Assembly (NCBI GenBank): GCA_030141605.1
Contig: JAQGDQ010000093.1
Coordinates: forward strand, 248,001-312,000
Source: Tubiluchus corallicola
Taxonomy: Eukaryota > Priapulida > Priapulimorpha > Priapulimorphida > Tubiluchidae
Length of the DNA: 64,000 nucleotides
Reading direction: 5' to 3'
Below are positions 2,558-31,472 of the stretch, piece after piece. The notes beneath the pieces were generated by a model that was given only the letters and a program-made list of their open reading frames with translations, ran no database searches and was not told where the DNA came from. The position numbers were made by a program, and so were the translations under genes. Each line of letters begins with the position of its first letter. The stretch's first letter is position 1.

Positions 2558-5043
2558 CTAATAAGAAACATCTAAAGCATGATTAGGCTGGTACACCACG
2601 TTCTCCTTTTGGTCTGGATCTAAATCGCTTAGTCTAGAAATACACTGATTGTGTTCTTGCAACATTTTTGGCAAATTGGCACCACAGCGCTCCCACCTGG
2701 TGGACCGTCGGACGGGCGTCACCACAGCTGAGGGCAGTGAAAGGTCAAAATCGCCGACTGGCTTGCTCTTCCGGAATATTGGAGTGTTGGTCGACAGCGA
2801 CAGCTTGATTTCGCTCGACTGGAACACGTTCCTAGTTTCCACGTCATTCCAATTCGGAGAAAATTTCAGTCGACCTCCTCGTTCGGTGACAATGTACTGG
2901 CCGTGGTGGCACTCTGTCCAGCGACGGCGCGGTCGCTGTCGTGACTTTTTATTTGTTATATTAGCCATAGTCTTGCCAGTGGGTCTTTCATCGCACGAAG
3001 AAGATTTTTGTGCTGGAGCAGGGAAACAAATTTCATCTTCTGATATTTCTTTTGGAAGTTTGACAGGCGGCGAAAGAATTTGACAATGGTCAGATTTCTT
3101 TTCATGCGATCCACTTTGTCGAAATTCTTTGCCGCCATTGTTTGCACTTGTTGATTCCTTGTTGACTTTTTGAAAATAGTCCTTCAGACCAATGGCTAGT
3201 TCCTCGGCAGGTTTTGCCGCATGCTTACTTATCGCCTGTTCAAATATATCCATGACATCACTCACCGCCCCATTCTTTTCGGCCAACTTAGCCCTGACGA
3301 GCCAATACTTGGCCGTTTTCTTGCACAGCGGAATAGAAGTCTCAATTTCATCCAGGAGTTCTGCAACGAGTTCTTGTGGATAACCATCATCCACAAGTTG
3401 CATACACTCGTCAAGCATGCCAGCAAGTTCCCCCATGACAGGATCCGTGAATTTTCGCGGAGTGTCCTGTAGGCCGGTAAGAGTTTCGTTTAGGGACTCT
3501 CCGAAAGGTTTTTGAACGCCGGAACGTCGTTTCACCATTGGTTCACTTTGACGCTGTTTACGTTTCGTTTTCAGATCATCTGCAGATCGGCAGCCAAAGC
3601 ACATTATGTGCCGGTATCTCGTAGGTGTCTTTCCGTGTGCTTTCAGCCAAGCACTCAACTTCTCATTTAAAGTCTTTTCTTTATGTTTGCCAACCGGTAC
3701 AAATACAGACCGGCAACTTTGGGGCGTGGCAACCTTACGTACTCGCTCTTCACTCTTCTTAACTGGTGTTCCTAAACTTCTGGTACCCCTATGGTCCCCT
3801 GTTTTGCCAGACTGTAGTTGTTCATAAGACCTGCCTGCTGAAGGAGCAGAAACTCGTTTACTCGCCGACCGGGCCAAAGGATATGGTGAACCACGAAATG
3901 ATACAGACCTCCTTTTATTCCTATCACTAATCGACTTCGTCTCAATGGTGCCAAGTTCACTAGTTGAACCAAAATGCACTGTTTTACGTTTCTGTTTGTC
4001 GCGTTTTACCGGAGGCGTCGCCACTGGCAAATTACGATCGTTGCTGTCAGATACTTCTAACGTAAAAGACAAGCTCCTTTTCAGTGGTGGAGTTTGTTGA
4101 ACTGGTTTCTCCAGACCTTCCTCATTAGAACCGTCCTTCAAACTTTCATTGTTTCTGCATTTGACTTCTGAAACGCTTGTGTCTTTACAAGCCTGTGACA
4201 CGACGGTTGGTGCCTTCAGAATACCTTTAGCTTGGGAACTTGCCAAGGATGCTGTCCTTCCTTTTTTGTTAGTTACAGGGCCACACTGCAAAGAAGGGTT
4301 GCCCACAACATCTTTCCTATCAGTGTTTGTTGCAGTCTTGCAGGTAACACTTCGTCGATGTTGAGTACTCAGACTACGCCGAGGGAGTCGTTTTCCTTTT
4401 GCAATACTTACAGCTTTAGAATGTATGACAGCCTCAGCAGGTTTTTTCTGAGGCAGGATGGCAGTTTTGTTGACGTTCGGTTGAAATTTTGCACCGCCAA
4501 AACTCGTACTTCTCACCACTGGCTTACTGGCCAAAATTCTACTTTGCGAAGGTTGAGAGTTTGAAGCCTTCACCACGGATTTGGCAGTCAGAAAACTAGC
4601 AAGTTTAGAAGCAGCTGGTACAGCGTTAGTTTTTACATTTGTTCCTGCTACTGGCCACTTTGCATTTGGACACTGATTGGGCGGTTTCACATTTACGCTT
4701 GCACTTCTTACTATCCGCTTGTGAATCTCAGTTTTTTTAGGTGACAACGGTTTAGTGCTTCTACCGCTGCTTGCAGCTGACACACTGCTACAACTTCGCT
4801 TCAGTGGTGGGCCACGCTTGAAAACAATACCCGAATGCCACCTCTCCTTTGCGTCATTTTGTTTACCATTCGCTTTCTTCTTCTGACGCCAAAGTTCAAG
4901 CTTTTCTTTCATTGACAGTTGAGGTGATCTTTTTAGTTTTTTAGCTGGGGATGGAAAGTTGCATGGTGCAGCTTTCCTCTTTGATGCAGTGTTCTTCCCA
5001 TCAATAACAGCTGCCTTTTTCAAGTTCTCATTTTTTGAAATGA
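2558..5043 (-). CDS. CKAP2: CKAP2-like exon 2 (main coding exon)
   Basis: It starts after the acceptor ATTTTAG with a split Val codon and runs to TAG at 2560-2558. It carries the family domain and the C-terminal KEN box. I found no AATAAA close downstream. Confidence 0.8.
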
Positions 5044-5540
5044 CTAAAATTAAAAAAATCACAAATGAAGCAATTTTGCCATAAAAAATGAAAAGCAACT
5101 TAGTAGTTAATTTGCACTACCACTTGTTAACGTAATCACAACTGTTTTCGTCTGTATTATATTTTTTATGCCTTATAGTATACTTTGCTGATATTTATTA
5201 TGATTATGCCAGAAATAATTAAGCAAAATGAAACAGTTAAATCGTAGACTATAAGCAACATTCCATAGCAGTAAAGCTGAGAAATTTTGCTGGAATATAT
5301 GGAGGTTTAAAGAACGAAAACTATATCCGCAAATCAGCAGTTTTAATAATGCAAATTTATTAATAACACTGAATATTATAATTATTGATCAATACAATAT
5401 TTATTAGAGACTTAATTAGACTACCTACTAATACTATAGTACAAAAAAGCAAACAAAATTCGATAGTTTTCAATAAAACTTTCACGCCACTTACCAGCAG
5501 CTACGAATTTGTGACCCTCCGATTCTACCAAGTGTGACAT
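2558..5540 (-). CDS. CKAP2: CKAP2-like cytoskeleton-associated protein (two exons)
   Basis: Exon 1 is 5540-5495 (ATG, 46 nt, donor GTAAGT) and exon 2 is 5043-2558 (acceptor TTTTAG, 2486 nt). The one-plus-two nucleotide phase joins cleanly and gives 843 aa. The open frame continues into the intron upstream of 5043, but that part is not coding. The protein is basic and Ser/Lys rich. Its middle has a segment of the CKAP2 C-terminal domain type (LNEKLSAWLKAHGKTPTRYR), followed by the helical stretch DVMDIFEQAISKHAAKPAEE that I recall from CKAP2/CKAP2L. A KEN box (DQKENV) lies near the C-terminus, as expected of an APC/C-Cdh1 substrate. Known family role: spindle microtubule nucleation and stabilisation in mitosis. 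The CKAP2 assignment is by recalled motif similarity; it could be a more distant paralogue. Confidence 0.75.
5495..5540 (-). CDS. CKAP2: CKAP2-like exon 1 (start exon)
   Basis: It reads MSHLVESEGHKFVAA and then one base before GTAAGT. The phase fits the acceptor at 5043. It is too short for an ordinary ORF scan. Confidence 0.7.
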
Positions 5541-6650
5541 TCTTAAATTGAACAGAGGAAGTGCAGTTTAGAAAACTGCAAAGGCTAGATGCAGAATGCG
5601 ACACAAGCTCTCATGCAAGCTCACAATAATTTCAGTTTACGAACGAATTTTAAATAACCGCGTGCTCACAATAACAAGCACAAGTCACATTATCGAAATG
5701 TGATTGGCTAGCTACCTCAATTGGAATATGGTTACTATTAGATTGGATACACATTTTCAGTCAGGTACGTCATTCGCCGAAGGAACGTTGCTTAATTTGA
5801 TTGGCTAGGTAATAAATTGCAGTGTTGATCTAGCTTAAACCACTTTAATGTACTTCTGTACCACCAGGCAGAACAAACCAATAACATTTAGAAAGTATGC
5901 TAGAGTAAATATTTCTACCGCGTAAACTAAAGTATGCAAGAGTGCCGCGTCACCTTCTGCCGAATTATTTAACCATTCTGAAACCTTGAAATTAATATTC
6001 TTAGAAGAGCAGATTAATTTCCTAAAGTTCCCCATAAGGCAACATGAAGTAGCACGTTTATTTGAAATACTTTAACATTATGCTTTGAACCACAAGCTAG
6101 TGATTAGTTTATAGTTATCCTCTGGACCTCTTCCAAGGCTCACATTAATACTCATAATTAAATTTTGTGCTTTTTGGATACAGATAGTGCAACTGTGCAA
6201 AAATAGATGCAAATTTGATTCTTATTAATTTTATTATGATCAAAAGATTTATAATTTTAATTTAAGAAAATAATATATTAATGATTGCAACTATTTTGGA
6301 AAAAAAAGTGAAATTGCAACAAAACTTCATCACTTTTTTACAAAGTAGTTATCAATTTATTACACATACGTGTCAGTTATCATATGGAAAGATACACAAG
6401 AACACGGAAACGTACAAGATTGTTAAAATTATAACATAATTTAATTCAATTTTTCATCACAGGAAGCGAGTAATTATCATAAATCGAGTTTCCTACCCAT
6501 AACGCCAAAAATGTTTTGCCAAAAATCTCGTCCCAACACTGAGGACTGACGGGAAGCTTACGAACTTGAAAGATCAGCTGTCCCGCTGAGCTTATTGTGC
6601 TCTTTTCACGGTAACAGTTTCATGCTAAGTTAGGAATTCGATCGCCAGCA
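5541..6650. other. Upstream region of the CKAP2-like gene; no gene seen
   Basis: It should hold the promoter of the minus-strand CKAP2-like gene. It is AT-rich, and I could not place a TATA box or any recognised repeat. Confidence 0.4.
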
Positions 6651-6651
6651 C

Positions 6652-6774
6652 TCAATCGTCTGGTATCCCATCTCCCGCTGCCCCATCGGGTCCTGCTAAT
6701 CCCGACGGAAGTGGCGGATAAGAAATACCTTGACAAGAGAGAACGAAAACTTCTTGGCGAACACAGAAAGACAT
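6652..6774 (-). other. Short open frame in a locally GC-richer patch, unassigned
   Basis: It encodes 40 codons from ATG at 6774 to TGA at 6652, with a Pro/Gly-rich second half (YPPLPSGLAGPDGAAGDG). The patch is clearly richer in GC than its surroundings. A pyrimidine-rich run and an AG precede the Pro/Gly part, so it could be a terminal exon, but no partner exon was found. Confidence 0.2.
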
Positions 6775-7293
6775 TTTTTACAAGAAACAAAAACCGCCCT
6801 CAAACCCTACAACGTTAAACATTTTTACGATAATTATAATTTTGCAAGAGACAAGTTCGATCTTGCTAATGATATAATCAGCGTCTCATAATACACAATT
6901 TTTCAAACTAACTATTAAATGAGTTTACAATTGTTTACAATAATACTAGTCAGCATTGCCAAATGTGGCATACATACCCCATTATCAATATTTCCTCCTA
7001 TGAAAAATGATAGTTAACTTTACTGAAAATAGTTTAACTAAAAAATGTTTGCCTGCATTTGTAAGGTAGTAGTTGTCGCTAATCAGTTAAATATTCACGA
7101 GGAACCCAAGAAACAACAATTTTCTTCTTTTTTTGTTAATGTGAAACTATTTCGTAAGGAGGCCGTGGAATTGGGAACTACTTTTAGCAGACGTAAAGAA
7201 AAAAGCTTTTGCGTTAGGTTTTTTTACAAAGAGTTTTGTGTTATTTTGTATCTTATAAGTTTTGATAAAAACGTTTAGAGTTCTGATTAATCG

Positions 7294-7417
7294 ATGTGTC
7301 TGAAGCATTTTGTTTTCGCCGGCCTGCTATTGTTATTTGCAGGTTGTCTGTTTTGTTTGAAACAAGCGCTTACCCGGGTTACTCAAAGCGGGGAAGCCCA
7401 TTTCCCTCCTCGCAAAG
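7294..7417 (+). CDS. Candidate first exon encoding a signal anchor
   Basis: ATG at 7294 opens a frame starting MCLKHFVFAGLLLLFAGCLF, a short basic N-terminus followed by about 17 hydrophobic residues, then a soluble stretch ending PPRK. A good 5' splice site (AAAG|GTAATT) follows at 7417/7418; without splicing the frame stops five codons later. This is the layout of the first exon of a secreted or type II membrane protein. I found no downstream exon on the plus strand before the SPS gene, so the gene is unidentified and may be spurious. Confidence 0.3.
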
Positions 7418-7429
7418 GTAATTTTTTTT

Positions 7430-8778
7430 GTTAAATTTAATCATCGATGACAAGTGCTACTCTGAACCTAAAAGGAGTTCATTTTCTATGGTAAAAATGT
7501 ATTATTAAAGTTGCTAGTGTTACAACAGCGTTCTTCAGGAGATTGAAATCCAAAAATGATCAAAAATGATACTTCCGTGAAATGGTCAACAAATTTCAAA
7601 GTCCGAAAGTACACTGCAGTTAATTAGCAGCAATACCGTAACAAAGAACTACTAGACTGAATTTTGAGTTTTAAAAAAATCAATACTACCGAAACAAACA
7701 GTCCCAAACACACAAACGTACTTGCGAATATTGACTTAGTGTTATCGCTGTATAAAAACCATGAAGTTTCTTAATTTCTACAACACAGTGGAAATGGTTA
7801 CTTAATTTTAATGGAAATACCCTGAAGTAGGTTCGGACATCTAATAACTTCGAATTAAACCACCAAACACGTGCACGCCCAAATGGAAATAACATGGAAT
7901 GAAAGAAAGTTAAATTGCGTTCGTAATCATCAGACATGGTACAATGCTTCAATGCTGCCAGACTGTTTGGTCTGCAGAAAAGTGCAATTCAAACAATCAA
8001 AAAATATTATAAAATACCGAGAGACTGTTAATAAATGTACTTAAAAATTCAAACAATTAGAGAATTACACCAAAATTGAATTTATCAAGGCATCTAAAAC
8101 AAAGAAATTTACCAGAATTTAGAAACAACATCAAAATACAATTCAGTAGTTAGATAGCCAAAAGATATATGACATAACATTATATAGATAATTTAACAAT
8201 TTACCTCGCAGATTACATATCTTAATTGGCATGAAACTATGCTACACTCCACAAACAAACAAACCAATATGTTAACAATAACAGAACTTCCAATATTTAG
8301 GGAGCTGCCACTTTGATAATGAACGGTTTGTTCGAAACCGGTTGGGCAATAAATTCAATTTTGATGTAGTTACATCTAGATGTCAAATATGGATATTTCA
8401 ACTAGAGAATCAAGGAAATCTTTACTGTCAATTTTAGGATGTACTAACATTTTGTGAGCAAACTGTTTACATCGGAACACACCAAGGGCTCACAAACGCT
8501 TCTACCCCCATTCACAAAACTACGTTTGAATAAACAATGTACATACACTGACAGAATTAAGCAACTCGTAGCAACAATGGATAAAAAAACCACAAGGTCA
8601 AGCCGTAAGCTAAACATGTAATCACACAAGTACAATCAAACAGCCAGTGTGCGTTGAAAAACAATTAAAAGCTTGCGGTCTATGAAAAATCTGACAAAAC
8701 AGCGTGGATGTGAAAATATTTTACAAATGTGGATTGCTAGCCGTGTACGGAAACCGGAAAGCCATGAGCGACGTGACG
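7430..8778 (-). other. 3' flank / probable 3' UTR of the SPS gene; no SECIS recognised
   Basis: The 3' UTR of the UGA-containing SPS gene should fall here. The best hairpin seen is a perfect 9-bp stem (TTTGTGAGC at 8451-8459 with 8488-8496), but it lacks the SECIS non-Watson-Crick quartet (ATGA with GA) and the apical AA. A possible ATTAAA poly(A) signal is at 7812-7807 on the minus strand. Confidence 0.35.
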
Positions 8779-8963
8779 TTACCACAATTCTCCGTCCTTG
8801 TCCTTCGCCGGGACTTCGATGATCCGGGGTTTATCAATGATCCGCGCAGAGCGAGATCCCTTCTCCACTATACCAATGATCCACGCCTGCCGACCCTCCA
8901 GTTTTTCTATCTCTTTGCAGAATGCAGCTGCTTGTTCACGTGGCAGCGCGATCAATAATCCTC
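8779..8963 (-). CDS. SEPHS2: SPS exon 7 (last)
   Basis: It encodes [20 protein letters not shown] through [15 protein letters not shown], then TAA at 8781-8779. Confidence 0.92.
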
Positions 8964-11900
8964 CTAAAAAAACCAATCAGGAATGTGTCTCAAACTGCAG
9001 AGAAAAAATTGCTACCATAACCAAGTTAATCCAAGAACTGTATGTAGCAAACTTAAAGGAAGACAGGATGATTCTTCGTATACTACCCCATTTTCAAGTC
9101 CGATAAAAACTATACATTTCAACACAATTGATACGGTAAAAGCGTTTCTGATAATTAAATAATAGTTTAAAATCTCGAGCCCTGCTATTCATGACGTCAC
9201 AAAGTAACATAATTTTCAGCAGTAAAAATATTCCACGAGCGTGTTGCACGTGTTTGCGAAAGAGAAAATTGAAGCATAGTGCTACTGCAAGATATTCAGT
9301 GCGTTGTATTAAAACTAGGCATGTTTTAAAATAATAACTCAAACTTCAAATTTACCGCTGTACTCACGCATGAGCTGCTGAACGTGTGCAGTTTGTCACA
9401 AACTAACACATCACAGCTGAGATGTACAGCACCTGTTTTTGTGTAATGTGTTTCAGAAATGCATGCGCTAGCAAATGGCAAAATGCATGTAACAGCAAAG
9501 AACTAGTAGTGCGAAATTGCGTTTGTGTGGTAATAATTCTTTCACGCAAGTCATTTTTGAAAAAATAATTCTTCCTTTCTATATCTTAAAGAGTAGATTT
9601 TTTTGACTTAGAGTTCAAGATTGCGTCCAGTTTTACTTTAACTAATTGAGAGCTCTAAAAAACTTATAATAGCATCATTTTCCAATATTTTAGCAATCGG
9701 AATTTTCTGTAACTTTATTCTTTGTTTAAACAGTACAATATGAATATGACGAAATAGGCATATATACATAATACAACACCTTTACAACTAATGGTTTACT
9801 GGATACACACAGGTAATACGAACTCACAAAAATGAGTGAACTTTCAGCATTTTACTTAACAAGTACAGTAAACTCCGCATAACACAAAGTTTTGCGTAAC
9901 ACAAAAAATTTCAACAGAATGGATGAAATCCTTTGTTTTTCCCACTAAAAACATAACTTAACTCAAAAATTATGGCCCATTTAATCAAAATACATGAAAT
10001 TTACTTCGTCTAACTCGAAAATGCAATTTATGTTCTAGAAAAATTAAAGTTTCGTACAACTCAAAAACATTATCGTCTTCCAGGAAAATTCTGATATCTT
10101 ACAAGTCGCTCCCTCCCCGCCCCATGATTATTGGACACACAAACTGAACTGCAGTACGTAAGACGTTGGTAGCCCCACTGTCGTATTGTTTAGCAGTGTT
10201 GCGTACGTCTCGTTTTGTAACATAAAAAATCGTGTTTCACTACATAATTTGTGATTCTTTGACACGTAATTGTCATCAAATCTCGTCATTTATGTATAGA
10301 TGGGGTGACTTTGTGCCTTCTATTTAGCTCGCCGTCTGGATGAGGGGTTGAGAGTTTGTACGCTGGAAAATGGTCAACATCGCTAACTCAAAATGTCGCC
10401 TAATTCGAAGTTTTTTCGGTCCGGTTGAATTTAAGTTAAGGGGAGTTTACTATAGAATAGCTTTGAATGCATCATACTTGATAATTGCGTACTGTGGACT
10501 TTTTGACATACCCAATTGTTTACATTATTATGTATTTATGAGTTTTTCTTGTGTAGTTTACCTTTGCCCTCGCTTTCACACAGCTGTTTTACGTATATAC
10601 GCACACTGGCAGCTCACTGCTGAGATGTTTCATCAAGTGATGAAATCCACTGCAAAATTTTTTTATACAACGGACAAACAGAAATTCTGGGCCAACAAAA
10701 TTGACTGACTTTTTTGGAATCCTATTGATTTACTGAGGATGTCACATAAATTTACAAGTGAACGTGTACACGCATTTTATCATGAAACATCCAATAATTT
10801 CAAGTTTACTGAAGTCACAAAATACTTTTGGCCACACACACAACAAATTAGTTCATTAAGCGGATAAGGATTAGGTTTAGGGTTGAGATTAGGATTAGGA
10901 TAGAGTTAGGGTTAAGATATTTAAATTGGGTGGGGAATGGTAAACAGTGAATGTGAATGTACAAGTAGTTGATACTTGATGGTACTTCACATTCTCTATG
11001 AAGTGACACATTGTGCATAATTTGCACACCTTTGATAAGTGCTTGTCCATCTAGTAGTAGTATATGCACATGACTGACCGCGAATACCTATAGAATACCT
11101 CGGTTATAGAGTACTTTTCTCTAGGTCCATAGCAGGTAGGGGTGAGCATTCTCTACCAAAAAGCAAATTTGAATCGAATCGAATTTCAGTATTTCGAATC
11201 TGAACCGAATTCAAAACGTGTTTTAAAGATTTTCAAACAAGTTTTCGAACCAGTAATAAAAGCGGTCTTGCACAGATCATGCATATTACTTGATTTTGTA
11301 CTTCAGTAAAACCACTATTAGTTTGCTAAAAAAAATTTGCACAGAATCTGCAGCTAAATGATGCTAATTGCATGATGTTTCAAATATTTTGACGATAAAG
11401 AACGTATGTGGCTCAAGTGCTGAACTACTCAAATCTATAATTTCATGTTCTAAGCGAATTCGAACAAAAAATCGAACGTTCGAATGCTCACCAGGTTCAC
11501 TATAATGATGTTATACTGTACAAGTAATACAGGGATATTAGGGATGGAACAGGGGATATGGTATTTGCTAACATTAACCTACATTCTAAGTCTGCATAAC
11601 ACCGGAACTTACCGGAAGTCTCAGCGGAAATTCCCTGTAGGAGCCCAAACAGGTTTCCGCAGGCTTTTGCCACGGCTGAAGTCTTTGCTATGCAAGGAAG
11701 GTTGTGCACAACAAACGACACTTCATTCTTCTGATGGCGGGCGAGGTTCTTGGCGTGGCCAAGGATCCCAAAACCGGTGACGTCTGTCGCTCCGTGAGCG
11801 TTGTACTTATGCATCAAACGGGCAGCTAAAATAGAGGTGACTATGCATAGAAATAGCATACAAATAAAGCATTTTGTAAGTATTTAAAAAGCAAAAGATG

Positions 11901-14900
11901 CAAAAAGAAATTTATATGCTACAGATTACATGCCCTTTTCCTTGGCATTTTAAGTATCAAGAATGATAATGCAAAATTTCATTCAGACAACCAAGCAAAG
12001 TGAGGCGACACATTAAACAATCATTTGTACAAACCAGTTCTGTTGGTGCGGGACATGCTGTCCATCGCACGATCATACATCTTCTGCACATCCTCGTCGC
12101 TCACCACGAGCTTAATACGATTCCAGCGCTCCGTCTGCTCCAACCACTGATGCGCGTTCACCGCCACCTGTGTGCCGAGGGGCTTCGTCAACACAAGAAC
12201 ATCTCCCACGACTGCATTGTCTGGCCTGAAGCATAAAATGTATTCAACGACGAACATAACGACTGCCAACTTGAAGCAAACGTACAAAAAGAAATACGGT
12301 AAATCAAATCCTCGCTTAACGACTCCGAGTTTAGCAATGTTCCATTTTAACAACGCTGAACATTTGACACTTTTTATCACTTAACGACGCATGTTCCATT
12401 TTGACGATGATTTTTTTACTTCGCTCAAAACCAGTTTTTATTTTACCAACAGCTTTTTCGCCCTAATTTGATGAGTTAAAACAGTACACAATGTGTTATT
12501 CTGTTCTAAAAATGCACTAGTATGGTAAACAGTGCAATTATTATACGTGTTTTTGCTTCCTAACTGACTACTAACTAATATATACTAGCCGTTCGTATAA
12601 AGCAACACCTGGGAGCAAACTGCAAAGGAAATTTGCCTGCAACCTGTTCATATAGCAATCGGACTAAGTGTCTAGATAAAATTCCCAAGGTCGCCTTAGG
12701 GCATGGCTTTCATTCGGTAGTGTTTATAGTTTAATGGCTACCTAAGCTTAAACGTTAACGAAGGAGAAACTGCTTACCAAGTATTGGCAAAAAAGATATA
12801 CAGATGGTTCCACACAAGCAGAAAGAATTTAATTAGTAGAAATATGAATAAAACTCATAAAATGCTTTTCAGCACCATTGATTTTTGCCTCTGAAATGTG
12901 TCTTAATTCTTTTACATTGCTTCCTATGTCTTGGCTTCGCTTAACGTCGCGTTTTGCTGGAAAGCACTAGCATCGTTGACCGAGGAATTACTATGTATAA
13001 TTCAATAGCAAAAATAAGACAAGTACAGCTGTCATTGATTGGTGTGACTGCAACTCTCCAGTTCATTTAACATCTCACTTTTTGATCATTTTGACTTTGA
13101 GGTGAACAAACAATGGCAGATTTAAAAGTAAGGAATGAATAACCCAACATAGAGTCATCACATGAAGTACAAGATGGAAATTACTGCTTGCAAGAAAAAA
13201 ATTCGTAAACCTTCATTCACAGAATTCACAAATTTCCTTGACTTTCCCTGACCAAATATTGATTTTCCATGACCAAGATAAGCAGAAATTGAATTACCAG
13301 TATGCATATTCAAACATTATTTGTGTATGGAAATTCATACATATACTGTTATACAATGTGTCGCCCAATCATTATTTTTGCAACACAAATCCAAACTGAA
13401 AGCCTGGAAAATTTCATTTCAACGCGAATCTCTGAAAAATATGTTTGGCAAAATATCAGTTCACGGTGATTATTTTTGCAACCCTTTCCAATTTTTCTAC
13501 CTCGTTTTCATCATTTTCCCTGACTTTTTATCAAATTATCTTTTTCCCTGAATTTTCCATGGTTTTCCAGAATAACCTATCTTTTCAAGGATTTTCCTTG
13601 ACTGTGGGAACCCTGTTCAAACACAGAGTTCAATTGTTTACCAGTAAACAGAAACCTAAACTCAAAACTGACTGTTAAACTGTGTAAATTTACAAAATCA
13701 CCAGTTAAATCTAATGTATTTATCTTACATAATCATCTCATATTGTTGGCAAACGCTGGAAGCCACACCTCCAATGGTCATCCAAGGATTCATAACTGTC
13801 TGACCACCGGTCACTCGGGTTCCATTTTCTTCAGCGCAGTCCTGAAAAAGTGAAACTAAAAATGTCCTCTCTATAGACAAGACAATGAGGTTGCACTGCA
13901 AAGTTAGCAGTTCAAACCTAGAACCAGGTTTAATATTTTCGCATTCTTTCTGTCAAGTGGATGCCCTATCATCTGCAGCTAATTTTCCTATTTTCTCTTT
14001 CTTTTTTCCGAAATAAGGCCGACAATAAAAATACTCCCGTTTCCGTCTAATAGACTGGATAATAATTTTTTATATCGCACCCGGCCGATTTCAACTGATT
14101 CTAAATATTCCACAATTCAGCTTTAAACATTTACAAAGCTTTAAAAAAAATTTTCTCCCTCCCTCACTACTGACATCTTTTGAGCTCATGTGGTAAGACA
14201 GAAACAACTTTTTGTGTCCGGCCCAATAGCCCCTAATAAACTAAAAGTAATAAGTTTTAACTAGGCCTGTATCGATGCTTCGTGATGACTTTCATTACGA
14301 TATCGCCAAAGTGCGCCCGTGTCGTGATAATCTGAGCCAATGAAATTTAGCAAAAAACGTGAAATCATTCGAACCTTAGCTGTAGAGCGTACTCTACACA
14401 CGGAAGAAAAAGTGCAGTGAACATTAGCTGACTGAACACCTCCGCTAACAGCCATTGAAGCAGTTGAAAACACAATATGTTTAACCTATAGCAGGCTAAT
14501 TACAGTGTTTACAATCATTTTTCTAGAACTTCAAATTATATTGCAAACCAAATCAAAATCCAATGACAATCTAACTAATGCGTGTAAGGCTTGTAAGGCT
14601 CGTCAATTACCTTTTTTTTAAATGATAAATGGCAACGACAAACTGAAATTACAAAACCAATAAACAAACGATAGTAAAAAACATTGAAACTTAGATATAC
14701 AGACTGAATAGCTTCACTGCCTTCGCAGTACAAGTAGGCACAGCTTAATAGACTGACGATCAGTAGACTCGATCGTTTAAGTGACTCAAAAACACCTGGT
14801 ACGGGCCCCGCTTCTATTCAAATGTACATAAAACTGCTGGTAATTGACACAAATAACTCCGCATAATTGACTGAATATTTTTGCTTCACATACTTCAGTA

Positions 14901-17900
14901 AGACACTTTGGTGTGACTGATAAGCTTTTATGACTTTTAAATCATCTTAGTTCGCTTTTGTTCTATAATATACATGGAAACAATCACGTTAAATACAGTT
15001 TTGTTTGTAAGCAGGAACATTTATCATACGCTAATAAACTAGCCGAATGGTATGCTTTGACCCGCCTGTCCACTGCAATTGACATTGTTACCCAAGAATT
15101 CCTGGAAGCTAAGCATTTAATCACTTCCTTAGCAGTTTGCTTTTGAAGGTCTGGCTGTCTTTGCCAGAAAGTTAAATCAGTTAGTTGTTGCTGTTATGCC
15201 AGGGACACACCTACAAGGACAGGTACAGTACAACACGATAGCAAGTGGGATCTTAGATGAAACTACAGACAAAGCTGCAGGGAAACACGGGCACCACCAA
15301 CAGTTTAAGTACGCCAAGCACTACGTATTTTACGAGAATTTGTGCATCATACAACAACAGACTTTCAACATTTTTATTATTATGACAACGTTTGAGCCAA
15401 TTTCTTCATGATAAAATGAAGTAGTCGTCTTTGAAGAAATTTTTGTAATTTTGTAATCAAATAAACAGATTTGTGTAATTTAGAAAAGTATACTTCTTAA
15501 TTTATTGCTAATTCACTTACATAAATTAATATTTTAGAATCTTTTCTTTCTAATTTTTAACTGCTAAAGGAATTTAGGCGTTACTTCGTTTCTAAAATTC
15601 ATTACAAACATTTGCAATGCATACTAAGCTGGTGACTCATACTTTCTATACCAGTAATACTACACCAATCGGTTAATAGGACTAAAACACTTCGGTTCCA
15701 AAGTGAGTCTATTAAGCGGCACCTACTGTATTAGGAAACTTCGTGCTTACTGGACACTCATTAATTCATCATAGCATCATATGCTCAAGCACGTGCGTCG
15801 GGCCCAATTTGAGCAAATATGTCAAATTGGCTTAAAACCGGCCCCGACTGCAAAATTCTAAGTTGTGAGTTAAACACTCTTATTAAAACTTCAAGTAACC
15901 AAGTAATTAATCACTGTAATTAATTAATAACGCAATAGTGTGCCACAGCATATGTAACCTGTCCAACAAGTTCTCAATACCTTGAAACCGCGGATCATTA
16001 GGGGAACGACGACGTCACGTTCCTTCTCCGACAGCTTCTCGCTGACTCCCAGCAGCATCAGCATATTATCACAATCTGTAACTCCCATCGCGTACAGGTC
16101 ACTCAAAACATTCGCGCTGGTGATGCGACCCTAGCAAAACAAATCACAGTGAAATTAGAAAATTATCAACTACAATGTTAAAAGCCATTAACAACACTAC
16201 TTCTGTCCAAAAACCACATTTTTAAGCAATGGGCTTTTTCATAGTTTCGTTGTGCGTGCATGCAGTTACTGTAGGTCAAAGGTTAAGTGTACCACAGCAA
16301 CGGATCTTACCTAAAATCGTCACATGACATGTGGATAATGCAATTCATCAGTTTAATTATGCATTAGTCCATTCAGAGTGATTTATTAGCAGCATCTTGC
16401 TTGGAAACAAGAGAAAACGAACTAGGTAAGGCTCTACCTAGTTGTTAAAACTGTTGTTATTACAATAGCATGGGCTGCGAGGTGTTGTCAAGTGTACTTA
16501 AAATGCGTTGTCTAATACAATCTTTGACATTTTCACAGTCATCATCAATCGCTGGAACTGTGAAAAGGCTTATTGCAAGAAACTGCTTATTATTAATTTG
16601 AACCAAATAATAAAACATTCAACTGCAGTCCAGAAATAATTTTTGACAAACATTTTTCACACGTTTCAAATCGCTAAACGGACAATTTTTGTTTGATTAA
16701 ACAGGAATATCCACAAACTCATCATGGGCATGTTTGTGGAATTAGCGACTAGCTCAGATGATAGGTGGAACAAGGGGTGGTAGAAGCTAGAAACAACCCC
16801 CCTGACCCAAAACAATTACATACTAACATGGCATAACAAATACAGTAGATGTGCTGGATCCAGAGTTCCGGTAATTTTAATGGATCTGGCGGATCCAATC
16901 CAGATGGGGCAGAAAAGTTTGTATTTCTATTTTTCTACCGACTGTGAAAGAACTAGAGCGGGTAGGAAGAAAATATATGTTACAGTTTAATTATCTAAAC
17001 AGTCAATCCTTTCAAATAATATGAAGGATTTCAATCAGGATGTTACCGAAACCAAAATTTATGAAACGTAGAAAACCGATACTGAAACATTTTTGGAAAA
17101 TCAATTATTAAAACTGAAAAAACAAAATTCTAAAATAAGTAAAATATTTTGTTTCTTTGCTTTTATTTACTGATAAAAAATTCTAATACAAAATGGACAA
17201 GGAAGTTCTATAGTACAGAACCTCAGTTTGATCGAGTGGCTTACCTTAGAAAATGTGTTATAATGTTTTTGGATTTAAGTATTTCTAAAGATTAATGTTT
17301 AAAGATCATAATGCTTCATTAAAAATACACAAATTTTATTTTGTAAATTTTTTTTGCCTGTATTTCACAAATTATAAAATTAAACATGATTTTGCTCAAG
17401 TAAACTCAAAAGTGGTTTGATATTTCATTTGACTGGGACTGGATCTCGACATAAACTTCACAGTGGTCAGCACTGAACAATATGCAGCATTGCCGGTAAA
17501 AGCACGTCACAAGCTGTTATGTAAATGAAATTTTCGCTTTATTTGAACTAATTTAGCCAAGATTTTCCAGTGGTTTTTCACATCTAGGAAAAAAGAAAAG
17601 GTAAATTAAAAAAATACTAGTAAAACCTCAGCGAAATTTCGGCTACGGCTAATAAATTTAATATATTTCCTCGAAAATTAACCGAATGTGCAATTATCGA
17701 TAACATCCCCGATTTCTATTGATCAGAAGTCACAAAAGTATCTTAGTAATCTTCATACTGTGGTTACGTGCAGCAACAGGGCACAAAGATAGCACTATTG
17801 CCACAAAAATGACTGCTAAATATTTAGTGCTGTCTCGTCTAAGTAAAAACATGGTTTGGCAGTGTAGCCCCAGAAAGGGAACTGGACCAGTCTCATACAG

Positions 17901-20366
17901 ATCCAGATCCGATCCAGAACATCCCTACTGTAAACCTTCATAAACATTAATATTTGTGTTATAGGGTTATTGATTTCTCTGTTTTTTTCTGAAGTATTTC
18001 TTACTTCTTGTTTTGTACAAACTATCGCCACTAGGACAATGACTTAGTAATTGCTTGTACCAAACAGTACCTCATGAGTGTCACCTAGTTAAAAAAAGAT
18101 TCCTGATTCAATGTTGCTGTCAAAAAAAGGTAACGAAACGGCTGAGACAGAGGCAGTAACTTTCGGGCAGTCACTCTGTAAACTCCCTGACTAGCTCACA
18201 CTCGGTCTCTGGCAAGGCAGACTCCTGAACTGCCTTTAAGTTTGGCAAAATTGGCTCATTGGAAAGTTATCTCTCATCACATCGTATTACGTTTGGAACA
18301 TAGAGGTTAGACAAGGGAGTCAACTTAAAATAAACTGACATCGAACACTAAACCTGCAGTACAGTGTATTTTCTCACCAACGCAACGTACTAGCAAATGA
18401 TCATAAAAGAGAACAGTTACAAAGGACTACAATAACACTGGCAGTACCAGTTCTCTTACCATCATGTAGGGATCTTGAACCAGCGGATAAAAGAAATCCG
18501 TAGTTTGAACGAGAAACAAGCCTCCATGTCGAAGTGGCACAACAGCCGAGTCCATTCCAATACCTAGACAACACACTCAAAACTACGTTAGTCACTGTAC
18601 AGTAGGGGTGAGCATTCTCCGCCAGAAAGTGAATTCGAATCGAACAGAATTTCAGTATTTGGAAGTTGAATCAAACTGAGTTTGAAAGATTTTCGAACCA
18701 GTCGTAAAAAGTATATTGCATGATTTTGTTCTGCAGTAAAATCAGTATTAGTTTGTTAAAAATTTTGCACAGAAACTGCAACTAAATTGTGCTAATTGGA
18801 TGCTGTTTCAAACATTTTAAAGATAAAGAACATATGTGGCTCAAGTGTCGAAACGTTCGAATCTATAATTTTAGTTTAGAATCGAATACGAACTAAAAAA
18901 ACTCGTTCGAATCGAATTCGAACGTTCGATGCTCACCCCTACTGTGCAGACTTGTAAAGAATTAAAACCATTTGAATTGAATTACTCAAAGAGACAAAAA
19001 GTGGAATTTAAAGTTAAAAGTTTCCAAAAAGTTTCAAACATTGCGACAATACCTAATCCAGTTTCAAAGACCTACCACTAAATTGGCTGCACTTTAACGG
19101 TTATCACGGGTGTTTAAATTTACAAGTTTTATACGGCATTACTGCTAATACAAGCTCTGTACGCAATAAGACAGCATGTAAGTGATACAAAATTGAAGAC
19201 TAATGTTTTTGGGCATTAAATTGTGAAGTGTTTTCTTGTACACTAGAACACTATTTTTTGTAAACCATAAGCAGCCACAAAAAATGTTGAGAATCTAAAC
19301 TTAGTTACAAGATGGGTTCACCTTCGTCAATGTGTTATCAAAGAGAAAAAATGCTGAGCTACATGTTGGGAAGAAACTACTCAAGGTGCCACTTTCTCAC
19401 TTTCAGACTAAAGAAAAAAAATCAACTTGGTCAGCCTTTGAGCATCAGAGAAAAAATTATATTAGTTTATAGCAATTTTATGCGTATATCTTACTCGCAC
19501 TGAAAGAAATTTTGGTTTGTTTTCATTTTCAATCTCCCAAAATACTGTTCAGAAGTCGCCATTACATGACGTAATGTACCAAACGTAAATCAAGGGAAGA
19601 AAAGGCAATGTTAAATTATGTCTCAAAAGACTTTCCATGCAAATATATATTACTTAGATTTTCTACGCTACGAAGATTATTTTTCCAAACTTTACAAAAT
19701 GTTATCTAAACTTGTTTCAAATGACCTGTCGTGAAAATGGCTGCGTCTAACGGTCATCGCGGGAGTCTAAATTTACGTGTAAATACAGCGTGACTGCCGA
19801 TTGAAGTCCTGCACGCAAAAAGGCAGTATGTAAGTGATATAAAATTTCAAAACGAATTTTTTAAGCTTTATGTTTATGAAGGGTTCTCTTATTATTATTA
19901 TTATCATTATGAGTTTATTTCGCATAAAAATATACAGCTTGCAAAGAAAACTGGATGTTAGTGAAACAGATAATGGGATGTTAGCAAAGTCAGTTCTGCA
20001 AGATTCCAATTTCTCCTTTGCTTTTGCAGCTGCTAAGCAAGCACGTTCAAAAAAGATCAAAAATTTCAAATTCTTTGCAAAGCAAGCACGTTCAAAAAAG
20101 ATCAAAAATTTCAAATTCTTAAGTACTTTTTTGATAATCATTCACTCACCGATGGTATTTGAAACTGGAAACTGCATGCCCATGTATTGCGCCTGGTCAC
20201 CGTCCGGCCCATTTCCGCCGTTAAGTCCCTCCAGGAGTTTAAGCAGGGTCTCCTGAGGGACCTTACACCCTCATCCTTTTAAATCGGCGAATTTTGTGAG
20301 CCGGAAAGAGGCGTCCAGATCGTGCGCAACAGGATCAAATGGCTGTCGCAGCTCCAAAGTTGTCAT
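8779..20366 (-). CDS. SEPHS2: Selenophosphate synthetase (selenide, water dikinase) with in-frame UGA
   Basis: Seven coding exons join in phase: 20366-20150, 18563-18460, 16130-15981, 13841-13729, 12225-12035, 11825-11613 and 8963-8779, giving 390 codons plus TAA. The enzyme makes selenophosphate from selenide and ATP, the Se donor for Sec-tRNA. Family hallmarks seen: the Gly-rich catalytic loop KG-X-GCKVPQE (residues 30-39), the segment [65 protein letters not shown] and KPRIIEV. Codon 32 is TGA (20273-20271), at the catalytic Cys/Sec position, so this is an SPS2-type selenoprotein or a UGA-readthrough SPS. The chosen start [10 protein letters not shown] is the only ATG in exon 1 before the TGA in this frame, with G at -3. 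The introns hold several MITEs. Confidence 0.93.
9866..10452 (+). mobile_element. CAGTAAACTCCGCATAAC MITE, copy 1 (SPS intron 6)
   Basis: The left end CAGTAAACTCCGCATAAC and the right end GTTAAGGGGAGTTTACTA are inverted repeats flanked by TA. Homologous copies lie at 44803-45400 and 62783-63351. There is no coding capacity. The termini resemble Tigger/pogo-type elements. Confidence 0.7.
10862..10918 (+). repeat. Degenerate telomere-like TTAGG/TTAGGG repeat
   Basis: A run of GGATTAGG, TTTAGGGTT, GATTAGG and GTTAGGGTT units over about 55 bases lies inside SPS intron 6. It resembles an interstitial telomeric sequence with many substitutions. Confidence 0.55.
11137..11492 (+). mobile_element. 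hAT-like TAGGGGTGAGC MITE, copy 1
   Basis: It starts TAGGGGTGAGCATTCTC and ends GAATGCTCACC. The interior matches copies at 18603, 31109, 31897 and 60692. The last bases of its right end are altered, and its target duplication is not clear. Confidence 0.75.
11613..11825 (-). CDS. SEPHS2: SPS exon 6
   Basis: It encodes [20 protein letters not shown] through GISAETS, with acceptor TTTTAG and donor GTAAGT. Confidence 0.92.
12035..12225 (-). CDS. SEPHS2: SPS exon 5
   Basis: It encodes [20 protein letters not shown] through MSRTNRT and ends one base into an Ala codon at donor GTTTGT. Confidence 0.9.
12296..12991 (+). mobile_element. CAGTAAGTCCTCGC-family MITE, copy in SPS intron 4
   Basis: Both ends carry the AATCCTCGCTTAACGACTCC type of terminus (right end CGTTGACCGAGGAATTACT). 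The interior matches 26944-27556, 36597-37293 and 53484-54140. The right-hand SPS exon boundary (12225) is only about 70 bases away. Confidence 0.65.
13222..13615. mobile_element. CAGGGTTCC-terminus MITE, copy 2 (SPS intron 4)
   Basis: It ends GTGGGAACCCTG at 13615, with repeated TTTCCCTGAC motifs inside. It matches copies at 408 and 42284. The left end is worn. Confidence 0.6.
13729..13841 (-). CDS. SEPHS2: SPS exon 4
   Basis: It encodes [20 protein letters not shown] through CQQYEMI. It ends two bases into a Met codon at donor GTAAGA. It is too short for a simple ORF scan. Confidence 0.88.
14732..15728 (+). mobile_element. CAGTAGGCACCGCTTAATAG family, near full-length copy (SPS intron 3)
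   Basis: The left terminus is AAGTAGGCACAGCTTAATAG and the right terminus is CTATTAAGCGGCACCTACTG followed by TA. Homologues are at 39572, 41372 and 50330. There is no transposase frame, so the copy is non-autonomous. Confidence 0.7.
15981..16130 (-). CDS. SEPHS2: SPS exon 3
   Basis: It is exactly 50 codons, phase 0 on both sides, from [16 protein letters not shown] to IRGFK. The donor is GTATTG. Confidence 0.9.
16841..17932 (+). mobile_element. TA-flanked element with CAGTAGATGTGCTGGATC termini (SPS intron 2)
   Basis: TACAGTAGATGTGCTGGATC at the left pairs with GATCCAGAACATCCCTACTG then TA at the right, allowing a 2-base gap. It is about 1.1 kb, a single copy here, with no recognisable transposase. 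Confidence 0.6.
18460..18563 (-). CDS. SEPHS2: SPS exon 2
   Basis: It encodes [18 protein letters not shown] and continues to DPYMM, with acceptor TCTAG and donor GTAAGA. A TGACTAAC branch-point-like motif lies just upstream. A hAT-like MITE begins only 32-40 bases further upstream. Confidence 0.9.
18603..18941 (+). mobile_element. hAT-like TAGGGGTGAGC MITE, copy 2 (SPS intron 1)
   Basis: The inverted termini TAGGGGTGAGC and GCTCACCCCTA are flanked by an 8-bp target duplication, CTGTACAG and CTGTGCAG (one mismatch). It lies just upstream of the SPS exon 2 acceptor. Confidence 0.85.
19440..19700 (+). repeat. Dispersed repeat shared with 57360-57620
   Basis: The segment containing GCCATTACATGACGTAATGT and its neighbours is closely similar to 57360-57620 in the same orientation. 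A related pair of shorter direct repeats lies at 19084-19215 and 19741-19865. The family type is unknown. Confidence 0.6.
20037..20126 (+). repeat. 45-bp tandem duplication next to the SPS exon 1 donor
   Basis: Two adjacent copies start GCAAGCACGTTCAAAAAAGA at 20037 and 20082. They sit 25-110 bases inside intron 1 from the donor of the TGA-containing exon. Confidence 0.8.
20150..20366 (-). CDS. SEPHS2: SPS exon 1, contains the recoded TGA
   Basis: It covers codons 1-72 plus one base, donor G|GTGAGT. TGA is at 20273-20271, followed by GGGTGT. The downstream frame is clearly coding ([18 protein letters not shown]), so the TGA is read through. The exon's acceptor is GTAG at 20412 or ACAG at 20405, leaving a short 5' UTR. 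Confidence 0.9.
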
Positions 20367-22150
20367 TCCCACCTCTGGTGCTCCTTGCTGTTCCAGAACT
20401 ACTGCTGTAACCTACAAAATGCATGAGTGATTTAATAACCCAAATTCCAATTAGCTAGTAATTATTTACAAAAATGTATTTGAAAATTCACAGTAAGTGC
20501 AACAATCAGGGGTGTATCAAGACTTTACGATGCACTGGGCTGATTTGTCCCGCCCATCTCTATTGTGAATTTATGGTTGTTTATGTAATGAGGAGATTAA
20601 ACAATTACTTGTGATGTATTAGAACCGAGTTTCTACCTGGCCATTATTATTGGCCATTACTACCTGGCCGTATTTGCATAGCGCTTACATTCAAGCAGGC
20701 TGCACAACTGTTTGTTGTGTAATAACTTGTACCTGTTCGTTATGTGGCACTTATATAAAAGCTGCAATCAGTAACTGCCTGTGGTGTGTTATAAAATGAG
20801 AACTTTACTGGAATATGAAAGTATACACATTTTCCGGGGAGAATAAGAATTTTTTTCTAAAATGTGATGACCTCAAACTTTGGCGCCCTAGGCTAGAGCC
20901 TAGATAGCATATATTGGTTAATACGCCCCTGGCAACAATGGCTATATAACTAGAAGTCACAATAAGTAGATTGTCTTGCAAACCTCAAAGTAGTGATAGG
21001 TTAATAAATTAATCGAATTAATCCAAATTACAAACATGTATAAATCAACATAATCGGCGATGAACAAAATGTATGTGTTACACACATACACACGCGGTAG
21101 CCTTGCACTATCACAATACACACAATTGCAAATTGTGGTCTTCAAATTCGTTTTCGTGTGACATGCACAATGACATACACATACTTATAGGGTGATATTG
21201 CATGTGTCTATAATAATAGTTTGCGAGCGTGAAAATAACAGACAGTGACGAAACCCATGAAGAATATTATCTACATGGTCTGAAAAAAGTGCTGCAGTGT
21301 CTGAAAAATATGGATAAAACACTAAAAAATTGGTGCAAAAATTTATGGTGATATCGAATTACAACAACAAGATTACAATCGAATTACAAAATCGCCTATC
21401 ACTACACCAAAGGTAAGTTATTTTAAACTCTAATTAAACGTTTAGTGCTAAGTTAATGATACAGACATGCAAGTGTGAAAAAACAATCAGTTTGAAAATC
21501 CCAAGGACTGCAGAGATGGTAGGTGAAATAACTATCAACTACGTACAAGTTAGTCAATGAAAACTATAAAGTTTAAAGTTTGAGTTAAACACTCCAGCCA
21601 AAATCAAACCATAATATACCTATAAATTCTCTGTCTTGTTTAGTTATATGTTTTTACACTTATATAAATAAATATAATCTAGGTTTAACGTGATATCAAT
21701 GATAATAAATATAATCTAGGTTTAACATGACACCAATCACTATTAGTATTATTAACATTAAAGTCAAAATTACAAAAATTTAAATTGAACTAAAGAAAAA
21801 ATGAACTAACAATAATCCGTTTTTATTGATTATGGAAAACTGTAATTCAAAAACCTTACCCATCACAACTAAAATAACCATTCTCAAGTTTTCAAACGTG
21901 CTAACTTTACTTGATCACAGTTAAACAGGCGCTAGAAGTGGAAAAGACGACGCTTACAAACTATCCAAATCCTCCTCCAGTCGCAATTCTTATTTTAGGC
22001 GAGGCGCGAAAGGAGCAAATCAGCGTACACTGAGTACAGCACGCAACCGCTCTCTGATGCAACGAATCGAACCTCGCCATTTCCAAGGCACCGGCTCTTG
22101 GTTTTTCAGGCAAGCGGGCTTTGTTCGCAGTTTAGAAAATCAGCATTTAC

Positions 22151-28502: not shown

Positions 28503-30998
28503 TTACATCATCTGTATGTTTGGAGGACATACGGGAAGAGGAGGCGGTGGAGTAGAAGGAAAGGGAACAGAAGGCAAAATGGGTGGCGGGGTAGGGGTGA
28601 CTGGATAGTATCCACTGGTAGGTCCAACGAATCCCGGAGGACCTGAAAAGCCACATCCTGCGTTTCGCTCTGCAAGTGTTGTCGCCATAAACTGGGAATC
28701 CAGCGGGTAGGACTTGTCCAGTCGCTGCTGATCAAACTTCGTGGAGGGAACCAAACAGCAGCCGCGTTCGTATGTGTTCAACTTATTCATGTTTATCATG
28801 TACCTCTGTTCTGGTGGCTCTTGAAGAAAGAAAGGTGGTCTCATGTCTTGCTGTGGAGTCACCACTGGTATTCCATCAGGTGCAAGATAAACATAATTGT
28901 TGTTGACCATCGGGACGTAAACAGGCTTTGAGTCGGTCACTCCATCAGTTTCGGGACTCGTGCTGACATCTAGGGGTCCAGCGACCAGCTCGCTGTTCTT
29001 CTCGTAACTGGGACTGCTCCGTTCATTGCTGCTGCTACAGTGTTCATCTGGACTCGCACTACTGCTATCTTCGTGGGCTGGTACGACTGTGGGGTAGCCA
29101 CACGAGGATGCATACCCACAACTCCAGCTGACCGTATGTGTTGACGCAGCAGTGGTCAGCGAACAGGGAGGCTGGAATGCTGTCACTTGTTGTTGCTGTT
29201 GCATCGATGCCGAGACGCGAAAACTCTCGACGCCATAGTTGAAAAAGAAACGCAAAGTTCCGGGATCTGTAAGTGGGAGGTCACTTCCTCGGGGGTCTTT
29301 GGAAGGTTCGATATTGAAGTTCACTGAACTGATATCAACACCAGGAACCACAAGGTAAGGAACATACGGCACATAGGTAACAGGAAGCTGACTTGATGTC
29401 ATCACCTGACACGAAATATCTGAAGAAGGCGGCGCAGACGAACTCAGCAATTGGGGCTCCTGAGGAATGTCACCGCATCTCTGTGCAGGAACTGGTTGGG
29501 GGGAAGAAATGCTGTGAGCACTCCCGTTAAGTGAATGTCTGGAGTCTGGTCTCCCGTAATCTTCCGGTATGTTGTCACTACAATTTACATTCGATTTTGG
29601 AACCCGGCAAGCACTCTCCATGTCAGCGGAAGAGCAACTATGATGACGTGCCCTTGGCTGAGCTTCCCAACTGCTGCGAGAATTTCCTGAGTACCAACGA
29701 GTTTTTGCTTGATATCCTCCTCTATTATAGTTATAATTTCTGTTGCCACGGCCACCACGATAGCCACGATTGAAATTCGTCTGCATTGGACACACGTTCA
29801 TTCCATGCTGGAAGCGCGGATGCGAAAATCCACTGGACACCAGGCCGTTGAATGGCATTGGATAGTAATCTCGAAAACGCTTCTTGAACATTCGCTTGCG
29901 TCCTCTTCCAGAGCCCACTCTTCCCATGGGTATGTAACTTCCGGACATGGTTCTCGCTCCTTGACTCCTCCATGGTGACAACGGTCTAGTGTTAAACGGA
30001 TGTTGCTCCAAACTCTCGTAAGGTACCTCATGTTTGTTACCGGTTTCCTCAACGAAAACTGTGACTGGGCCCTTGTCGGATGCAATCTCCTGGACATGGG
30101 CATGATAAAGAGAGCCTTCCATATGAACCAGAACTTTATCCCCGGGAATGTACTCACTAGTTAGCATCTTCAGCTCCATTTCACGCTCACACTCTCGCAC
30201 TGACTCCAGCCATACGTCAAACTCAACATTGCGGTAGTGGTCAGGATCTAATGACTTTGCCACCTTGTACGGAAGGGGTATATTTTGCGCATGCAATGTC
30301 AACGCTCGTCGCATTTCAGCGTCCCTCTTCACATGCTTAGCCTTATCTTTGTCTTTGACCTCGGTGGATGACTCCAGCTCACTAGAATCGGTATTGACCA
30401 GCACCTCCGGGGAAGGACTGTTCGGTCTGTCGCTATCCACGCTGCAGCAGCTGTCCAGTCTCATTTTCCCTAGTTTACTACGCAGCATATCAACTGCAAT
30501 GGTGATCTCTGCATCTAGATGAAACACACCTCTGTACAGGCACTCGTAAACCAGTGCCTGACAGAAGCCAGAGTGCTCGATAAACGTCTTGGGGTAAATA
30601 CTGTCGTAATGAGTTCCGCTGGAGAAACAAAGGGTCAACGTCTCCTTAAAACAGTTTCCCAGCGCATTGATAGGCGGTTTTCCAATCTCCCTGTAGATAA
30701 TTATGTCTCTTTTGAAAAGCAAAGATATGGCTTTTAATTCCACTATGCTGGCCCATGATTTCTCGTTTTTCATCTGGGAGAGGTACCATTCGAATGGCGC
30801 CTCCACCAGTGATTCGAAAAGCTCCCTGTGCAGTTCGATGAAGCAAATACAGGCATCGCGAACCTCGGAATATCGGCTCTGTGTCAGAAACAACTGTTCA
30901 GAAACGGCCCTGTACAGACACGTTGGGTCTCGAGCCGTAGATTTTCGAAACATGCCAAGAGACGCAAAATAATCGTCCAACACATTTGTGTTAACCAT
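28503..30998 (-). CDS. OTUD4: OTU deubiquitinase with Tudor-like domain (OTUD4/Otu family)
   Basis: It is a single coding exon of 831 aa from ATG at 30998 (context CACCATGG) to TAA. The frame stays open upstream, but that part is 5' UTR exon and intron: an acceptor TTTTTTACAG lies at 31062 and a MITE beyond it. The OTU domain is at about 8-160, with catalytic Asp24, Cys27 (DPTC) and His130 (THYD) present, so activity is plausible. A conserved linker (PYKVAKSLDPDHYRNVEFD, near 244-262) is followed by a Tudor-like segment near 282-334 ending VPYESLEQHP. An Arg/Gly-rich RGG-type region, a short Gln run, LRFFFNYGV (a motif shared with OTUD4) and a Pro-rich C-terminus follow. Known roles: deubiquitination and RNA-granule association in OTUD4, ovarian development for fly Otu. 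Confidence 0.88.
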   Translation of the reverse strand: MVNTNVLDDYFASLGMFRKSTARDPTCLYRAVSEQLFLTQSRYSEVRDACICFIELHRELFESLVEAPFEWYLSQMKNEKSWASIVELKAISLLFKRDIIIYREIGKPPINALGNCFKETLTLCFSSGTHYDSIYPKTFIEHSGFCQALVYECLYRGVFHLDAEITIAVDMLRSKLGKMRLDSCCSVDSDRPNSPSPEVLVNTDSSELESSTEVKDKDKAKHVKRDAEMRRALTLHAQNIPLPYKVAKSLDPDHYRNVEFDVWLESVRECEREMELKMLTSEYIPGDKVLVHMEGSLYHAHVQEIASDKGPVTVFVEETGNKHEVPYESLEQHPFNTRPLSPWRSQGARTMSGSYIPMGRVGSGRGRKRMFKKRFRDYYPMPFNGLVSSGFSHPRFQHGMNVCPMQTNFNRGYRGGRGNRNYNYNRGGYQAKTRWYSGNSRSSWEAQPRARHHSCSSADMESACRVPKSNVNCSDNIPEDYGRPDSRHSLNGSAHSISSPQPVPAQRCGDIPQEPQLLSSSAPPSSDISCQVMTSSQLPVTYVPYVPYLVVPGVDISSVNFNIEPSKDPRGSDLPLTDPGTLRFFFNYGVESFRVSASMQQQQQVTAFQPPCSLTTAASTHTVSWSCGYASSCGYPTVVPAHEDSSSASPDEHCSSSNERSSPSYEKNSELVAGPLDVSTSPETDGVTDSKPVYVPMVNNNYVYLAPDGIPVVTPQQDMRPPFFLQEPPEQRYMINMNKLNTYERGCCLVPSTKFDQQRLDKSYPLDSQFMATTLAERNAGCGFSGPPGFVGPTSGYYPVTPTPPPILPSVPFPSTPPPPLPVCPPNIQMM

Positions 30999-31061
30999 GG
31001 TGAGAAAGTGATTCACTAATTCAAAAACAAAGTTCTGCTTGTAGAGTCTTTCGGATAAAGT
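30999..31061 (-). other. OTUD4: 5' UTR part of the OTU gene exon
   Basis: The stretch between the acceptor CAG (31064-31062) and the ATG is open in frame but starts from no ATG. The upstream non-coding exon was not located. It probably lies between 31480 and 34750. Confidence 0.5.
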
Positions 31062-31108
31062 CTGTAAAAAACAAATGCAAAGTACCTTGTAAGTCAGGCT
31101 CACGAGAG

Positions 31109-31472
31109 TAGGGGTGAGCATTCTCTACATTAGCAAATTCGAATCGAATTTCTGACTTTCGAACTCAAATCGAACCGATTTTCAGCATTTCAAATTTGAA
31201 TTGAATTCGAATGAATGATTTTCGAACAAGTTTTCAAGCCACCAGTAAAAATTAGCTTCACAAAGATCATGCATATTACTCGACTTTGTTCTGCAGTAAA
31301 ACCACTAATAATTTGTTTAAAAATTCTGCACAGAAATCACAGCTAAATTATGCTAATTACATGAGGTTTCAATTGTTTTAATAATGAAGAACATACGTGA
31401 TTGAAGTGCTGAATTATTCGAATCTATAGTTTTAGGTTCGAATCGAATTCGAATGTATGATGCTCACCCCAA
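31109..31472 (+). mobile_element. hAT-like TAGGGGTGAGC MITE, copy 3
   Basis: It is flanked by a perfect 8-bp target duplication, CACGAGAG (31101-31108 and 31473-31480), the clearest proof that this family inserts like hAT elements. It lies 40-48 bases upstream of the OTU gene acceptor. Confidence 0.9.

Follow-up and report, generated by a model that had tools for sequence, protein, structure and literature searches.

The locus analysed here raises the question of how a selenophosphate synthetase (SPS) gene with a TGA at its catalytic position is decoded. The window, a 64,000-nucleotide stretch of contig JAQGDQ010000093.1 from the priapulid Tubiluchus corallicola, carries this gene on its minus strand. 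A first-pass annotation had described seven exons assembling in phase into a complete SPS with a single TGA at codon 32, inside KG-TGA-GCKVPQE, with coding sequence continuing on both sides, and had taken the TGA to be recoded, either by selenocysteine (Sec) insertion or by stop-codon readthrough.

The spliced window sequence bears out most of this description. Seven coding exons join in phase, with GT-AG borders throughout, to give 390 codons and a stop (Table 1). The TGA lies on the minus strand where it had been placed and is the sole internal stop of the coding sequence, while the remaining two frames contain 20 and 19 stops. The surrounding codons read AAA GGA TGA GGG TGT AAG GTC. The codon number and the exon count did not stand: the gene probably comprises eight exons encoding 414 amino acids, with the TGA at codon 56, because the first ATG of a leader exon captured in a spliced copy of the gene (22177) is in frame. 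Translation would then start at 22177, and the leader could extend beyond its captured part. The internal ATG at 20366 lies near the start of human SPS1 in the alignment described below. The intron directly 3' of the TGA exon contains a 45-bp unit twice (20031-20120), with 97% identity between the copies. Elsewhere in the window, an open frame with a CKAP2_C domain lies just downstream of the SPS gene (2558-5116, minus strand), an 873-codon open frame contains an OTU cysteine protease domain (28503-31124, minus strand), and a minisatellite of about 15 copies of a 51-bp unit is open in several frames (47155-47896).

Table 1 Features of the SPS locus and its processed copy, numbered from the first base of the window unless a contig is named.
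Feature	Position	Strand	Basis or remark
Leader exon (exon 1), 5' UTR and first 9 codons	22151-22327	-	Identical to spliced fragment G000:C2272
Leader exon start codon ATG	22177-22175	-	Only ATG in captured leader; A at -3, G at +4
Leader exon donor	22150	-	
Exon 2, rest of predicted 24-residue N-terminal extension, internal ATG at 20366, then TGA	20150-20411	-	Acceptor from processed fragment; donor gtgagt
Exon 2, coding part from internal ATG	20366-20150	-	In-phase splicing
In-frame TGA, predicted Sec, probably codon 56 (32 counted from internal ATG)	20271-20273	-	
Hexanucleotide GGGTGT, directly 3' of TGA	20265-20270	-	
SRE-like hairpin, 14 bp, one bulged base, 12-nt loop	20223-20263	-	Predicted fold
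Exon 3	18460-18563	-	In-phase splicing
Exon 4	15981-16130	-	In-phase splicing
Exon 5	13729-13841	-	In-phase splicing
Exon 6	12035-12225	-	In-phase splicing
Exon 7	11613-11825	-	In-phase splicing
Exon 8, contains stop codon TAA	8779-8963	-	In-phase splicing
Candidate SECIS (form 2): ATGA/TGAT quartet, helix II, AAAA, 4-bp apical helix, 5-bp helix I	6563-6631	-	
First AATAAA beyond stop codon, 3' of candidate SECIS	6356-6361	-	
SPS fragment	G000:C2272:145242-145337		Protein search of assembly

We compared the product with human selenophosphate synthetase 1 (SEPHS1, SPS1-Thr, PDB 3fd5), an alignment that the first-pass annotation had proposed. With C placed at the TGA, homology extends over residues 4-381 (E = 3e-172) and spans both flanks of the TGA. 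KG-TGA-GCKVPQE pairs with KGTGCKVPQD of the human protein, so that the TGA stands opposite Thr. The product also contains AIRS and AIRS_C domains (Pfam) above cut-off, and scores 258 bits with the NCBIfam model selD (TIGR00476), for which the cut-off is 125. The gene combines full-length membership of the SPS family with an in-frame UGA at the catalytic position, two of the marks of metazoan SPS2-Sec. Human SEPHS1 apparently has a function other than selenophosphate synthesis (Mariotti et al. 2015, PMC4561486).

A protein search of the assembly, which has gaps, returned eight matches to SPS at E <= 10. Seven correspond to exons of the window gene and the eighth is a fragment on another contig. 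Just one complete SPS locus was detected, which leaves some room for a second SPS gene in sequence missing from the assembly. The protein search was used because split exons escape the domain model: an AIRS family profile search of the assembly yielded nine matches, in open frames of 305-436 codons, none of them on the window's contig. In the surroundings of the fragment (locus L024), a segment identical to window positions 22327-22149 (179/179) is joined to one matching 20413-20274 (138/140). The two segments share AGGT at the joint, and the absence of the 1.7-kb intron marks the fragment as a processed copy. In it an upstream exon with its 3' end at 22151 is spliced to 20411, evidence that the SPS gene is transcribed and spliced now, or was so recently. 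Both differences between gene and copy fall at third positions of the longer frame and are synonymous, by our reading of the alignment. We rejected the fragment as a working copy, as its similarity to the gene extends no further than the codon preceding the TGA and a stop follows a few codons later; stopping short of the TGA, it cannot confirm that codon.

The processed fragment (L024, 1124-1750) consists of the leader exon and exon 2, with similarity ending at the base before the TGA. It lies antisense to a reading frame that we label Ty3/gypsy-like (RT_RNaseH, Integrase_H2C2), and a 162-bp stretch is repeated on either side of it (161/162). Its junctions share GCCATTT and AAGGA, a pattern that would fit two template switches in the course of second-strand synthesis. 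The 5' limit given for the leader exon is the end of the captured part, where 22327-22321 (GCCATTT) is the microhomology at the copy's junction. That the fragment ends at the TGA looks like chance.

The sequence immediately 3' of the TGA contains two elements, the hexanucleotide GGGTGT and a predicted hairpin whose start lies 10 nt beyond the first TGA base. The 60-nt hairpin region has a minimum free energy of -25.7 kcal/mol, and only 1 of 2000 random synonymous recodings was as stable. Of 395 windows along the coding sequence, the five most stable all start close to the TGA, from one codon upstream to four codons downstream of it. Against dinucleotide shuffles the hairpin is moderately unusual (z -2.3 to -2.8), and a window cutting through it showed nothing unusual (z 0.19). 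A fold of 151 nt places the UGA beside a stem and not at an apex, in one energy model and for a single sequence; in the minimum-energy structure the U of the UGA is the closing base of a 4-bp helix, and the centroid leaves it unpaired. Structure prediction puts a stem-loop of the Sec recoding element (SRE) type at the UGA. The motif GGG-UG[C/U] after the UGA, present here, is a trait of the insect SPS1-UGA genes. It is described as ultraconserved in those SECIS-less genes, as scattered among other metazoan SPS2 and as absent in insect SPS2 (PMC4561486).

We searched the assembly for the machinery of Sec insertion and for other selenoproteins. Two of 13 matches to tRNA-Sec were above cut-off. 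One, on a 3-Mb contig, has a TCA anticodon and, in our judgement, an animal-like sequence; the other is probably bacterial and sits on a 33-kb contig whose open reading frames look bacterial. Six of the remaining 11 were extracted, and those six are tRNA-Ser genes. Two matches to SepSecS, each of exon size, exceed the cut-off. Two SBP2-like exon matches share 67% and 72% identity with a stretch of human SBP2, and could instead belong to the relative SBP2L. Bacterial-looking genes occur on contigs C1799, C1531 and C151 (loci L001, L005 and L010), and the second tRNA-Sec sits on the bacterial-looking contig of L010. In bacterial genomes, the AIRS-family open reading frame of L005 has Bacteroidota relatives at 70-76% identity (at least 80 loci). 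These contigs may represent symbionts or contaminants. A COX1 search of the assembly gave no match, so the mitochondrial genetic code was no guide to the placement of the host.

Two further genes have a TGA at a known Sec site. The tail of thioredoxin reductase (TXNRD) ends GC-TGA-G-stop and is followed, 1.4 kb beyond the stop, by a SECIS element scoring 37.7 bits with Rfam SECIS_1 (cut-off 35). A glutathione peroxidase (GPX) has a TGA at its catalytic site (VASK-TGA-GFTKANYTQL) and a weak SECIS_1 match downstream (23.1 bits, under cut-off). The genome-wide SECIS_1 search gave no matches, yet it missed the TXNRD element that later scored above cut-off, and so says nothing on absence. A search with the Rdx family, aimed at SelW and SelT, gave no matches either and is uninformative for genes divided into exons. 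The tRNA-Sec, the SepSecS-like and SBP2-like exons, TXNRD and GPX make it very probable that this genome employs selenocysteine and depends on an SPS2.

A SECIS search of the 3' UTR, which the first-pass annotation had called for, was positive with a pattern script and negative with Rfam. The script (RTGA, helix, unpaired AA or CC, GA) picked out a single candidate in the SPS 3' flank, with its ATGA at 6623, 2156 nt (2.16 kb) beyond the stop codon and within the predicted 3' UTR. Rfam scans of the window reported no SECIS, including in 6300-8790, and SECIS_1 gave no match at E <= 10 to a 161-base stretch containing the candidate. Among 500 shuffles of the 2439-nt UTR, 102 contained some hit at -6 kcal/mol, 8 reached an inner energy equal to that of the candidate and 7 combined an energy of -11 with a helix I of 5. 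Free-energy folding of the region gave no SECIS shape (z -0.38). SECIS cores include non-standard pairs, so this result is weak evidence against the element. A strict filter (ATGA/NGAT, helix I of 5, energy -11 or less), chosen after both elements had been seen, retained 3 of 20 rows in 256386 strand-bases, a total drawn from the window plus 17 partly overlapping loci. These rows are the SPS candidate and the TXNRD SECIS, the latter counted twice through overlapping loci. For the control genes TXNRD and GPX, the scanner at its usual threshold recovered the TXNRD element only; a relaxed scan of the GPX locus gave three hits, one coinciding with the weak SECIS_1 match. In an alignment of two SECIS sequences the 3' quartets failed to line up. 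We regard the SPS 3' element as a candidate, and likely, SECIS.

Between the two routes first suggested for recoding, Sec insertion is the main reading because the genome has Sec machinery, other selenoprotein genes, one complete SPS gene and a SECIS-like element. We are thus largely confident that the gene is a non-duplicated metazoan SPS2 whose UGA is decoded as Sec with the aid of the SRE hairpin. The UGA would be decoded by tRNA-Sec, SBP2 and the SECIS in the 3' UTR, the product would be a selenophosphate synthetase with Sec as catalytic residue, and SPS2 would supply the selenium donor for its own synthesis. GGGUGU and the hairpin would act as an SRE, slowing termination and favouring decoding, and they may leave room for some Sec-independent readthrough. 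This would be the usual arrangement for animals with one SPS copy, and the features of the gene match those of the non-duplicated SPS2-Sec genes in Mariotti et al. 2015. In that paper (PMC4561486), members of the class likewise have a single SPS gene with a UGA at the catalytic position, a stem-loop in the same region and Sec machinery in the genome, and the hexanucleotide occurs in some of them. The window gene differs in that its SECIS is only a candidate, and its predicted 24-residue N-terminal extension may be a further difference.

The alternative that survives best would add to Sec decoding. Under it, the single UGA of one gene would be read two ways. Long transcripts that carry the SECIS would yield Sec, and short ones, polyadenylated at an upstream site, would yield a standard amino acid, so that the gene would have both SPS2 and SPS1 activities. 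Mariotti et al. propose such dual decoding for non-duplicated SPS2 in metazoans that lack an SPS1 gene (PMC4561486). The single SPS gene found here, the readthrough hexanucleotide and the hairpin are consistent with it, and ATTAAA at 7812 and 7441 upstream of the candidate SECIS, with the AATAAA at 6361 after it, could give rise to SECIS-less transcripts. However, such short signals arise often by chance in AT-rich DNA, and we put dual decoding forward tentatively, as a possibility that we rather doubt.

We find it improbable that the gene is an SPS1-UGA of the kind present in Hymenoptera and most Paraneoptera, a copy that lacks a SECIS and inserts a standard amino acid at its UGA by readthrough. 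The insect genes with a hymenopteran readthrough element (HRE) share with ours the UGA followed by GGG-UG[C/U] and a strong structure at the UGA, and the negative Rfam scans would suit a SECIS-less copy. According to Mariotti et al. (PMC4561486), however, those genes are duplicates or survivors of SPS2 loss, whereas we found one gene, in an assembly that may be incomplete, together with selenoprotein genes and a SECIS-shaped element; the hexanucleotide, moreover, occurs in some other metazoan SPS2 genes. The reading is disfavoured because the genome, whose selenoprotein genes and Sec machinery demand SPS2, would then be without one.

A sequencing error, with TGC or TGT in place of TGA, or a dead pseudogene is very unlikely. 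The window is a single assembled sequence, but an SPS2 would be expected to have TGA at precisely this position, its catalytic Sec site. The seven coding exons are intact with no further internal stop, the hairpin is placed against the TGA, and the processed fragment points to present or recent transcription and splicing. An ascidian-type gene with an alternative 5' exon encoding Gly in place of Sec, as known in Ciona and Molgula (PMC4561486), is equally hard to credit, as tblastn of the exon residues against the window at E <= 50 found no second exon with the motif (best other matches E = 0.043 for the whole exon and 0.99 for the core) and the genome search at E <= 10 found none.

If the UGA is decoded as Sec and in no other way, this is an expected gene, though one that might be cut short at the TGA by automatic annotation. 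If dual decoding were true, it would represent, in a living genome, the ancestral state of two-way decoding that Mariotti et al. propose (PMC4561486). A literature search of titles and abstract openings found no title on such dual decoding from 2016 on. An apparently single-copy gene with a UGA, the hexanucleotide, a predicted hairpin and a candidate SECIS is a fair place to test two-way reading of the UGA, the step proposed in that work for the origin of SPS1.
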